A stretch of DNA of 64,000 bases from assembly GCA_022426155.1 (NCBI GenBank), contig JAKMEE010000022.1, forward strand, positions 1-64,000, in the 5' to 3' direction. Origin of the DNA: Candidatus Poseidonia sp. (GTDB lineage Archaea > Thermoplasmatota > Poseidoniia > Poseidoniales > Poseidoniaceae). The translations under genes were made by a program, and so were the position numbers. The notes beneath the pieces are model-generated. The model was not told the origin of the DNA. It saw nothing but the letters and a program-made list of their open reading frames with translations, and made no database searches. This document shows, piece by piece, positions 43,777-47,974 of the stretch (position 1 is its first letter; the number at the start of each line of letters is the position of its first letter).

Positions 43777-44841
43777 ATGGGCTCCAATGGAACGAATGAG
43801 AACCCCGTGACACTTCAGTTTGAAGCGGAACCAGATTCAAAGATTAAGAAAGGAGCCCATCGACCAGTATTTGCTCCTATTTTCACCCAACCTCCCGCAC
43901 AAAGGAAAGCCCCAAAGCGCCTCCATTTGCTTGTCAATCCGTATGCAGGAAAGCGTCGTGGTCGTGCAACTGCCGATAAAGCCAAACTGCTTTTTGAAGA
44001 AGCAGGTGTCAATGTTGAGTTTCATGTATCGTCCTACAGCGGACACCTCGTTGAACTCGCTCAAAATTTGGAATTGAAGAAAGGAGACGCTATTGCAGTG
44101 GTTGGCGGGGATGGCAGTTTTTCAGAAGTCATCACTGGTCACTTGCAAAGTGGATCGTCATTTCACCCAATTTTCGGACTTATTCCAAGCGGAACAGGAA
44201 ACTCACAAGCACATGATCTCGGTCTCAAAGACCTTGAAACCGCCATTCAAACCATTCTAGGTGGTCAAACCCAAACAATTGACCTTGCCCGAGTCCAAAT
44301 GGCCAAAGGACTACCGGGCCATGTTAATGGAAAGATGGTTCGGTACAGCCACAACCTTGTGACTTGGGGGCTTGGCGTCGATTCCACCCTCAAAGCTGAA
44401 AAAATGCGGTGGATGGGCCCCATTCGCTATGACGTGGGGATCTTGATGGCCATCATGGCCAATAATCGTCGGCAAGCTACACTCACGCTTGATGGGAAAG
44501 AGATGGAAGGTGATTACACGTTATTCCTCATTCAAAATAGTCAAACTGGAGGTTCTCTCCTCCCCCTTGCTCCTGGTGCCTCACTCGATGATGGTCTGAT
44601 GGATATTGGGATTTTGAAGAAAATGACACGGCGAGGTATTCTCAAAGCCTTTGGGATGCTGAAGTCAGAGGGGAGACACGTGTTTCATCCTCGTGTGGAT
44701 TACCATCGCTTTACTACACTTTCCATTGAAACTCCGACACCAGCAGCCATCAATGTGGATGGAGAGAACATAGGTTCTACGCCCCTGAACATGGAAGTCA
44801 TCCCTCAAGCAATTGAGGTGTTCACTCCTTCTTTAGAATGA
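43777..44841 (+). CDS. Diacylglycerol kinase/LCB5-family lipid kinase
   Basis: 354 residues from the ATG at 43777, preferred over a TTG six bases earlier. The catalytic domain has LLVNPYAGKRRGR, AIAVVGGDGSFSEVITG (the GGDGT-like nucleotide loop, here GGDGS) and GLIPSGTGNSQAHDLG. The C-terminal beta domain has GGSLLPLAPGASLDDGLMDI and INVDGENI. It phosphorylates a lipid alcohol, possibly an archaeol-type or long-chain substrate. Together with the PlsC-like gene 4 kb away it suggests additional lipid chemistry. The stop overlaps the convergent lipoprotein gene by nine bases. Confidence 0.85.
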   Translation: MGSNGTNENPVTLQFEAEPDSKIKKGAHRPVFAPIFTQPPAQRKAPKRLHLLVNPYAGKRRGRATADKAKLLFEEAGVNVEFHVSSYSGHLVELAQNLELKKGDAIAVVGGDGSFSEVITGHLQSGSSFHPIFGLIPSGTGNSQAHDLGLKDLETAIQTILGGQTQTIDLARVQMAKGLPGHVNGKMVRYSHNLVTWGLGVDSTLKAEKMRWMGPIRYDVGILMAIMANNRRQATLTLDGKEMEGDYTLFLIQNSQTGGSLLPLAPGASLDDGLMDIGILKKMTRRGILKAFGMLKSEGRHVFHPRVDYHRFTTLSIETPTPAAINVDGENIGSTPLNMEVIPQAIEVFTPSLE

Positions 44842-46257
44842 GAAATCTGAGAACTCTTCCTCTTCTTCATGAACCGCAGGGGTGTGGGGAGTTTCTTCTT
44901 CAACCGGTGTTCTTGTAACGGCTTTTCTTTTCCTTAACTTGGGTTTCTTTTCGGCAGTTCGTGTTGGCGGTGAATTCGATGAAGGAACTGATGTAGTGCC
45001 AGTGACGACGGAGGATTTCCGTTGAGTAAATGAGGGGGCATTCGATGAACTCACAACAGATTGTGTGCTTCGGTCCATTTCTTCCGCTTCTTGGGTGACT
45101 ACGACGGAACTTTTCCTTCCTTGTGGTTCTCTGCTAACAGGAGCGGAGGTTGAAGCCAAAACACTGTCAAGGTCAAATCCTCCCATAGCATCTCCAGAAT
45201 CCGATTTCGTTTCTTCTTGAGGTTTAGGTTTCTCTTTCTTCACTGAGGCCCGCTGCTTTTTCAGGCGCTCTTCAGGTGATTCCATGCCCGCTTTTTTGGC
45301 CGATTTGATATCCGATTTCACTTGTTTTATCTTGTCCAAGCCTTGACTTCCAACAAGGACCTTCATACTGGATCTTGCAGAAGTACGAATCATCTGCTTT
45401 GAGAATATGAAAGCACCTGCTCCACCGCCGATTCCAAACACCATGAAGAATAACAAAAACCCGGTTCTGCCAAAGAAGGGAACATTTCCTTGAATCCATT
45501 CTTCATCGTCATTTCCGGCCTGTGTGACCACGCCATTTTCAAAGTTGATCTTTGTAACAAAGACGTAGAGATTCTCACGATTCTGTGCGTTGACTCCCAT
45601 TGAGCAATCACTCTCAACGCTGTAGGCCATGTTACTGTTGTAATATCCAACTCCGGTAACGTCTGAACTGACCATGTATCCCTCAATGGTGATGGGTTGA
45701 TGCCATTCTCCCAATGCGGTGAATCCGCTTTGAATATGCTCAGTTGTCGGAATTAATCCTAGGACGAACCAATCGGTATCAGAATCTGCATCTACTTTTT
45801 CCAAATTGATGCTTCCAGCACCCGTGGAAGGCATCATGGGAACGTTCCATTCTTTGACATCGATGCGAGCTCCGTCACCATCCACCACTGCAGCAGCCTC
45901 AGCGAAGGTCATCTTTTGAATTCCAACGGCTGTGGTAACGCCGTAATCTAATCCCTTTGCCCCCATTGCAGGGTTGTGGGAATCGTAAAAATGACTGGTG
46001 GCAAGGTAACCTGTGAACAAGAAGGGTGCTCCATCAGCAACTACTGGGTCGGTAGCATCCGGTGGGCATCCAACTGCTTGCAAACCTTCCATTACCGTGG
46101 CACTTCCAGATAGTGTTGAGCGAACCGATGTATCGGTTTTCGAAAAGTCAACTTCCACAGCATTGTTTCCAGTTCCCCAATCCGAGGTAGAGGGGCCAAG
46201 ACATCCAGCCATGACCATGATGGCGATGAGGCACAGGGCCAAAGCACTACGGCGCAT
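44833..46257 (-). CDS. Lipoprotein with one membrane helix and long disordered cytoplasmic tail
   Basis: 474 residues from the ATG at 46257, which begins a lipoprotein signal (MRRSALALCLIAIMVMAGC, with a lipobox-like MAGC). About residues 20-255 are exported beta-rich sequence with two Cys. One membrane helix follows (TGFLLFFMVFGIGGGAGAFI). The remaining 190 residues are Lys/Ser/Glu-rich, low-complexity and probably cytoplasmic (KKEKPKPQEETKSDSGD, EEEEEFSDFSF). I do not recognise a family. It lies downstream of tRNA-Ser on the same strand. Confidence 0.6.
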   Translation of the reverse strand: MRRSALALCLIAIMVMAGCLGPSTSDWGTGNNAVEVDFSKTDTSVRSTLSGSATVMEGLQAVGCPPDATDPVVADGAPFLFTGYLATSHFYDSHNPAMGAKGLDYGVTTAVGIQKMTFAEAAAVVDGDGARIDVKEWNVPMMPSTGAGSINLEKVDADSDTDWFVLGLIPTTEHIQSGFTALGEWHQPITIEGYMVSSDVTGVGYYNSNMAYSVESDCSMGVNAQNRENLYVFVTKINFENGVVTQAGNDDEEWIQGNVPFFGRTGFLLFFMVFGIGGGAGAFIFSKQMIRTSARSSMKVLVGSQGLDKIKQVKSDIKSAKKAGMESPEERLKKQRASVKKEKPKPQEETKSDSGDAMGGFDLDSVLASTSAPVSREPQGRKSSVVVTQEAEEMDRSTQSVVSSSNAPSFTQRKSSVVTGTTSVPSSNSPPTRTAEKKPKLRKRKAVTRTPVEEETPHTPAVHEEEEEFSDFSF

Positions 46258-46335
46258 GAACGGTTGAGGGAGGGTGGAGTTTGAGAAGTCTTCCCTCATT
46301 GCAAACGAGGAAGATGGGTGGTAAATCTAACAAAA

Positions 46336-46421
46336 TGGCGCAGTCGGAGAGATTTGAACTCCCGAGTCACGGGGACACCGGATTTCAAATCCGGCGCAAT
46401 ACCAGGCTATGCGACGACTGC
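46336..46421 (-). tRNA. tRNA-Ser (anticodon TGA), CCA encoded
   Basis: On the minus strand the acceptor arms GCAGTCG and CGACTGC pair fully, with discriminator G and an encoded CCA (46336-46338), followed by TTTTG. The anticodon arm is CCGGA-TTTGAAA-TCCGG, giving anticodon TGA, which reads UCA serine codons. A class II variable arm (stem GTC/GAC) and the T arm GGGAG-TTCAAAT-CTCTC are clear; the G discriminator and long variable arm fit serine. The upstream sco-like gene overlaps its first 37 bases, and that gene's stop codon is exactly the anticodon. Confidence 0.95.
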
Positions 46422-47974
46422 TTTGTGTCGTCGGGGGTGCTGCTCTCTTTTTCCCCTTTCGCTTCATCTCGTTGAGGCCTCATGATGATGGCGGCACCGA
46501 TGGCCGTCGATGTCAATACAACAGACAGAGCTGGTGTGTCCATGGGGTCATTGTCTCCCAAACGATGTTTATCGAGCATTTCTCTCACATCGCTGGTGAA
46601 ATCTTCGACTCGCCAATTGTCCCCAGGCCATGCAACTTCTGGTTGACGATTTGGATTGAGGATGTAGGTGATGGTTGAATGCCCCACAGTGTATTCTTCT
46701 GTGAGTTCAGGAACACATGTCATCTGTTCATTCCCATCCCATCCATACCCCTCATCACACATGCAATGGGCGGAATTTCCACTCCCCATGACCCAACCGT
46801 GCCCATTGCAGGCTTCATCTGAAGCGTTAGTTGATACGGGCCATGGTATGCTTGAAGCATTGATTGTAGAGGGCGCCCAGGCAAGATGTTCCGGTTCTGA
46901 GATGCCATCCATCCCTACATTCGTGGAATCCCATGACATGTTGGTATTGTTCCAAGCATAGAGATTCCACCACCAAGTGTAATTGCTCGGTGCAGTTTCA
47001 TTGTTCAATGTCGTGAGGTAATGACCGAAGGATGGATCTTCTTCAATGGTCGAATTAATTTCTGCTCCATTCAGAGCGCCGAGAGTGAGTGTGTATCCAT
47101 TCATCTCTGAGAGAGTTTGAGTATCGGATGAACCGTTTGGCCAATTGACCGTCATGCTTGCCATGCCTTCTTGTGATGGAGCAGAGAGATTTGTTCGGTT
47201 CATGCTCGAAGGCATCCACATCAGGTGAGGGTTTTCGAATACATCAACGCTATCCACGCCAACTTCGGACATGTCCCAGGATGCATTGGACTCATTCCAG
47301 AGGTTCAATTCCCAAACCCAATCGGGATAAGTTCCTTCAATCCCATTGAATCCAGAAACATAGTGACCATATTGGCTCATGGAGGCATTGACTTCCCATT
47401 GACCTTGTTCAGCCATGAGTTCTGTCAACGCCCATCCGGAGAGTTCAGCCATCATGACCGTTGAGTTACCTTGTGTGTCAATCGTCGTGAGAGATGCCTC
47501 ACGAGGTTGATAATCCATCACGTGAGCGTCGATGACAGTTTCTTCAACAACCAAACCAAACGTGTCCCATACGTGCCTCAAGGAGGGTTCATCACTCGTC
47601 AAATGGGGCCATTCAACGCCGTGCAATTCCGTGTATTTCTTGAGCGCCTCTGAAGAATCGTGCTTTGGATCGACGGTGACCGAGATAAATGTCACATCTT
47701 CCAACTCAGTTTCAGTCAACGACGACTCGACGCCCTTGATTAATTGTGTCAATACCGGACAGACATCTGGGCATCGGGTGAAAATAAAGGAGATGACGAC
47801 AACTTCGTTGCTATCGTTATAGAGAGAATAATTTTCTCCATGTTGGTCAATTAAGGTAAAATCATCAACGGGTTCACGTGATAATCGGCTACCGTTGTAA
47901 GCTGATGCTGGAAAAGCCATCAAAGCAATAACTGCATAGACCACGAGGGCTTGTTTGATGTTCATGACGTTCAC
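46385..47974 (-). CDS. Sco1/SenC-like copper protein with a large domain insertion
   Basis: 529 residues with a signal peptide (QALVVYAVIALMAFPASA). The thioredoxin-fold start DDFTLIDQHGENYSL leads to ISFIFTRCPDVCPVL (Cys68, Cys72), the Sco copper site. The third ligand, His432 in TVGHSTITYILNPN, comes only after an insertion of about 300 residues. The insertion holds two similar DUF4430-like repeats (YGHYVSGFN... and FGHYLTTLN..., each ending HLxWxPSxxN) and an EGF-like Cys-rich unit (CNGHGWVMGSGNSAHCMC). A C-terminal membrane helix follows. Sco proteins deliver copper to the CuA site of cytochrome oxidase, and this gene closes the cox operon. Its last 12 codons and stop lie inside tRNA-Ser. 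Confidence 0.88.
   Translation of the reverse strand: MNVMNIKQALVVYAVIALMAFPASAYNGSRLSREPVDDFTLIDQHGENYSLYNDSNEVVVISFIFTRCPDVCPVLTQLIKGVESSLTETELEDVTFISVTVDPKHDSSEALKKYTELHGVEWPHLTSDEPSLRHVWDTFGLVVEETVIDAHVMDYQPREASLTTIDTQGNSTVMMAELSGWALTELMAEQGQWEVNASMSQYGHYVSGFNGIEGTYPDWVWELNLWNESNASWDMSEVGVDSVDVFENPHLMWMPSSMNRTNLSAPSQEGMASMTVNWPNGSSDTQTLSEMNGYTLTLGALNGAEINSTIEEDPSFGHYLTTLNNETAPSNYTWWWNLYAWNNTNMSWDSTNVGMDGISEPEHLAWAPSTINASSIPWPVSTNASDEACNGHGWVMGSGNSAHCMCDEGYGWDGNEQMTCVPELTEEYTVGHSTITYILNPNRQPEVAWPGDNWRVEDFTSDVREMLDKHRLGDNDPMDTPALSVVLTSTAIGAAIIMRPQRDEAKGEKESSTPDDTKQSSHSLVLRRI

Follow-up and report, generated by a model that had tools for sequence, protein, structure and literature searches.

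Does a stop codon that doubles as the anticodon of the neighbouring tRNA tie the fates of two genes together, or is it simply where a reading frame happened to run out? The question arises at the end of a sco-like gene in a 64,000-nucleotide stretch of DNA, which we call the window, from a marine Group II archaeon of the family Poseidoniaceae. The stretch belongs to contig C44 of a single MAG, 89% complete, whose 1.99 Mb are spread over 48 contigs. On the minus strand, the sco-like gene (47974..46385) runs into the gene for tRNA-Ser(UGA) (46421..46336) and ends there at a TGA (46385..46387) that is, by the coordinates of both the ORF and the ARAGORN prediction, the sco stop codon and the tRNA anticodon at once.

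The sco-like gene starts with GTG and encodes a protein of 529 amino acids that resembles copper chaperones. Its translation ends in TPDDTKQSSHSLVLRRI and, just as the original prediction had it, all 529 codons are open, with no stop ahead of the TGA at 46387-46385. Pfam identifies the protein as SCO1/SenC (PF02630, residues 38-151, E = 2e-23, or 2.1e-23 unrounded), with a score of 83.2 bits against a cut-off of 22.8. The translation contains a putative CxxxC copper site and a distal His, in the segments RCPDVCP and DAHVMDYQ. Beyond the SCO1/SenC domain, the protein has an extensive additional region and, towards its C-terminus, a hydrophobic segment, and the ORFs ahead of sco look like cytochrome oxidase subunits by their sequence. 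Homologues of sco were found in Poseidoniales and Poseidoniaceae MAGs (GTDB genomes), including 164 of the 171 family genomes searched, some of them matching only the Sco domain of shorter proteins. The closest homologues found are about 55-57% identical, so that the overlap is a state seen in one species only.

The tRNA is no remnant either. It is recognised by ARAGORN and by Rfam (RF00005, 54.6 bits over 46421..46339, minus strand), folds into a cloverleaf with all arms, a long variable arm, anticodon TGA and an encoded CCA end, and is the sole copy found in the genome. In the ARAGORN prediction the anticodon begins with base 46387, position 35 of the tRNA; the stop-anticodon identity and the 37-nucleotide overlap (46385..46421, minus strand) originally described are thus exact. 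All 86 nucleotides are identical in the 23 other lineages of the genus that we examined, so the final Sco residues, QSSHSLVLRRI and the stop, are this tRNA read as codons. The Sco C-terminal tail differs between species, and the terminal residues, whose conservation among relatives had been proposed as a check, are set by the tRNA and conserved in no protein; they only spell the tRNA.

Is the overlap maintained in related species? We compared 80 loci from GTDB genomes and 30 more (the window's own included) from a search of 30 congeneric genomes, and scored those having both a sco stop and a downstream tRNA, which left 76 loci, 33 in the genus and 43 in other genera. The two collections come partly from the same genomes (L005 and L086, for instance, have identical upstream sequence), and the genus is counted here by distinct upstream sequences, 24 with the window. 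The downstream tRNA was tRNA-Ser(UGA) in all 76 scored loci, and the order sco, tRNA-Ser(UGA) is common to the whole family Poseidoniaceae; it is old in this family. The overlap is another matter: the alignment of related genomes meant to reveal its conservation shows an earlier stop in each of the 75 other loci, 0-77 nucleotides before the tRNA (25-77 in other genera), with a negative gap in the window only and the overlap retained in none. Among the matches listed for the 171 family genomes, a search blind to overlaps in another frame, the window's is the only one that stays free of stops all the way to the query's end. Since it is absent from all 75 other loci, the overlap is, as far as these sequences indicate, specific to the window's genome, a C-terminal tail without its stop.

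Within the genus, about half of the 23 other lineages nevertheless stop 0-7 nucleotides before the tRNA. Eight have a TAA at a gap of 1, four a TGA at 0, 1 or 7, and one a TAA at 24; at longer gaps, nine have a TAG or TGA at 39-42 and one, with a broken gene, a TGA at 53. The TAA one base before the tRNA (L005, L006, L008, L087-L089, L091, L092 and L096) makes a tight junction with no overlap, where cleavage by RNase P would yield an mRNA still carrying its stop codon, at the extreme end. The broken gene (L110 and L114, both from genome G029) is split into several frames with an early stop, which suggests either a pseudogene or a fault in the assembly.

Why, then, does the frame of the window end precisely at the anticodon? 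The coding strand has no T in the last 44 nucleotides before the tRNA, which makes a stop impossible there in any frame. Inside the tRNA, a frame meets a TAG at position 13, meets the TGA at position 35, that is the anticodon, or stays open to beyond the tRNA. With these three outcomes only, the anticodon as a stop is a one-in-three coincidence of frame once an ORF enters the tRNA without a stop. Were the 23 other congeneric lineages to lose their present stop, 4 would next stop in frame at the anticodon, 7 at position 13 and 11 only beyond the tRNA, and 1 would still stop ahead of it. A purposeful use of the anticodon as a stop was rejected on the grounds of this frame coincidence with its three outcomes and of the fact that 3 of the 43 anticodons of the genome read as stops anyway (Leu TAA, Leu TAG and Ser TGA). 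We also observed a TAG at positions 8-10 in 19 of the 43 tRNAs of this genome, which would stop a same-strand ORF in that frame 7 nucleotides inside.

The sco frame crosses a second feature before it reaches the tRNA. At -41 to -24 from the tRNA (46445..46462, minus strand), inside sco, lies the element GCGAAAGGGGAAAAAGAG, a probable tRNA promoter of the BRE/TATA type. The same element, or near variants of it, occupies this position in the 24 distinct lineages of the genus, displaced by no more than about two bases. The sco frame of the window reads it in codon phase 0 and that of other lineages in phase 1 or 2; where the gap is 39 or more, it falls after the sco stop. Per site, it carries a mean of about 1.2 bits of information, and positions further upstream carry 0.2-0.3; these values come from an ungapped profile anchored on the tRNA, where changes in tail length depress the upstream values. 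An element conserved in any coding phase, or outside the coding region, is most simply explained as a promoter belonging to the tRNA, which would lie within the end of sco in several species.

We derived a motif from the 42 other tRNAs of the genome, CCG-n5-gTTyAAa, whose best site is mostly at -41 or -40. The element GCGAAAGGGGAAAAAGAG fits the position and the BRE-like half of this motif and not its TATA half: in the genus, the tRNA promoter PWM gives the corresponding segment GGGGAAAAA 0.8 bits, a chance-level score (p about 0.37), and proof of a promoter by a PWM built from other tRNAs failed for the window's genus. The orthologous site of a sister group (L040, L042, L043, L048, L056 and L063) reaches 7.0-9.3 bits at -40/-41, with the sequence CGGCGCCGTTCATA. 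There the sco stop, a TAG, shares bases with the TATA-like part of the presumed tRNA promoter (CGGCGCCGTTCATAG). A separate promoter inside sco, which the original prediction had named as a finding that would overturn it, is favoured by an element that holds the promoter position whatever the coding phase, and disfavoured by the poor score of its TATA half.

Another element, AGGGAAGACTTCTCAAACT, is present shortly after the tRNA in most lineages of the genus (L006-L010, L012, L054, L091, L092, L094, L095, L097, L098, L100, L102 and L105-L107), at about 46281-46300 (minus strand) in the window. It could be a promoter of the BRE/TATA type for the next gene, a lipoprotein-like ORF (46299..44833), in which case the true start of that ORF may be its second Met, MRRSALALC.

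We consider it likely that the overlap is a species-specific run-on of sco into the neighbouring tRNA, with no regulatory role. Across the genus, the last 45 or so nucleotides before the tRNA would hold the tRNA's own promoter, and the variable Sco tail would have grown into and out of this region. In the window species, the usual stop is missing and the frame runs to the first in-frame stop of the tRNA, the anticodon TGA. Most of the tRNA would come from a promoter of its own, with transcription beginning a few nucleotides ahead of the tRNA, and its supply would be independent of sco. An sco mRNA left uncut across the tRNA would be translated to the anticodon and give a protein with an 11-residue tail encoded by the tRNA; if RNase P cut first, the result would be a non-stop sco mRNA lacking the codons for just those 11 residues. 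The original reasoning is right that RNase P, by cutting a shared transcript, would remove the sco stop, and it is plausible that an sco transcript processed at the tRNA would have no stop codon. The further claim that RNA from this locus can serve as mRNA or tRNA and not both holds for a single transcript; it does not extend to tRNA made from its own promoter. Since the tail comes after both the SCO domain and the hydrophobic segment near the C-terminus, the Sco product is probably functional with or without it, and since it also varies between species, both outcomes are probably tolerated.

Could the junction be an error of assembly or base calling, the real sequence of sco stopping before the tRNA? 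The state is known from one incomplete MAG and is unique among relatives, and the same junction had no match in the viral contigs that we searched. However, with no stop in any frame over the last 44 nucleotides, the gain or loss of one base in the CCCCC run next to the tRNA would restore none ahead of it; of the 180 single substitutions scored over the last 60 nucleotides, just 7 would give an in-frame stop, and the remainder of the ORF is intact. We regard an error as unlikely.

A functional coupling would have a single transcript balanced between translation through the anticodon and RNase P cleavage, adjusting Sco against tRNA-Ser, or non-stop decay limiting Sco. The overlap is real, the gene order is kept across the family and the tRNA gene is single copy; moreover, there is no space for a terminator between sco and tRNA-Ser(UGA), so that sco transcripts probably continue into the tRNA. 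Yet none of the relatives examined has the overlap, and in those with a stop 0-1 nucleotide before the tRNA the mRNA would remain complete when cut by RNase P, the reverse of a switch. A conserved promoter-like element also sits between the two genes, and a promoter of the tRNA's own inside sco would make any coupling of tRNA supply to respiration unnecessary. With an earlier stop in 75 of 75 other loci and this element conserved upstream of the tRNA, the link between tRNA-Ser supply and respiration that had been suggested finds no footing here, and we judge the coupling very unlikely. A conserved coupling device, in particular, was rejected, the overlap being found in no relative (75 loci, and the matches listed for 171 family genomes). 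The observation itself is right; its regulatory reading is unlikely.

Even less probable, in our view, is that cells do not make the product of the annotated frame: the sco mRNA would end upstream, by processing or at an internal 3' end, and most molecules of the protein would end before the tRNA. The tail is free to vary among species, which would make a truncated or non-stop product tolerable, but no poly-T stretch occurs before the tRNA. Least probable of all is a competition of Sco synthesis and tRNA-Ser(UGA) maturation for the same RNA, in which clearance of the non-stop mRNA left by RNase P, the task of the archaeal ribosome-rescue pathway, would limit Sco and tie respiratory assembly to tRNA processing.

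How often do protein genes enter tRNAs in these genomes? A long, credible same-strand ORF does so at this one of the 43 tRNAs of the genome and at none of the 42 others, and no believable ORF runs into a tRNA in two sister genomes (30 and 32 tRNAs). The other ORFs entering tRNAs in these three genomes were discarded as short and devoid of recognisable protein character, the three that we tested having no Pfam match. An apparent second overlap in a sister genome (L178) was also dismissed, the ORF and the tRNA being on opposite strands with no overlap. In the part of the literature that we covered, no publication describing a prokaryotic stop codon that doubles as an anticodon came to light.

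The run-on of sco into tRNA-Ser(UGA) offers a clean natural example of a protein gene growing into a tRNA gene, with an unconstrained tail and a tRNA that probably has its own promoter. If the non-stop sco mRNA is truly made, it would also give archaeal ribosome rescue a natural test case. The locus carries a warning for annotation as well, since an ORF overlapping a tRNA can be lost by a gene caller, as one report suggests (PMC8967034). It concerns a bacterial ORF that overlaps a tRNA gene and is backed by metaproteomic data; like sco, it is a protein-coding ORF that a standard gene caller missed, though it comes from a gut bacterium, and the portion available to us does not describe its frame, its strand or the relation of its stop to the anticodon. 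In Thermococcus kodakarensis, a tRNA-Lys is located in the 5'-UTR of TK0306 (PMC4247193), another case of an archaeal tRNA and mRNA on a shared transcript; there, however, the tRNA is upstream of the protein gene and the coding frame is not overlapped.

The closest parallel is the tRNA punctuation of animal mitochondria. Six human mitochondrial mRNAs without an encoded stop (ND1, ND2, CO3, ND3, ND4 and CYTB) abut a tRNA on the same strand, and excision of the tRNA decides the stop: the mRNAs are cut from polycistronic RNA and their stop is completed by polyadenylation, while uncut or miscut forms are non-stop (PMC9674279). At the sco junction, too, an mRNA and a tRNA abut or overlap on one strand. 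Punctuation would also have the tRNA, lacking a promoter of its own, set free from the shared transcript only; at sco the conserved element in promoter position argues against this, though its TATA half is weak. What sets the sco junction apart from mitochondrial punctuation is the likely presence of a local tRNA promoter, the position of the stop within the tRNA and the restriction of the arrangement to one species.
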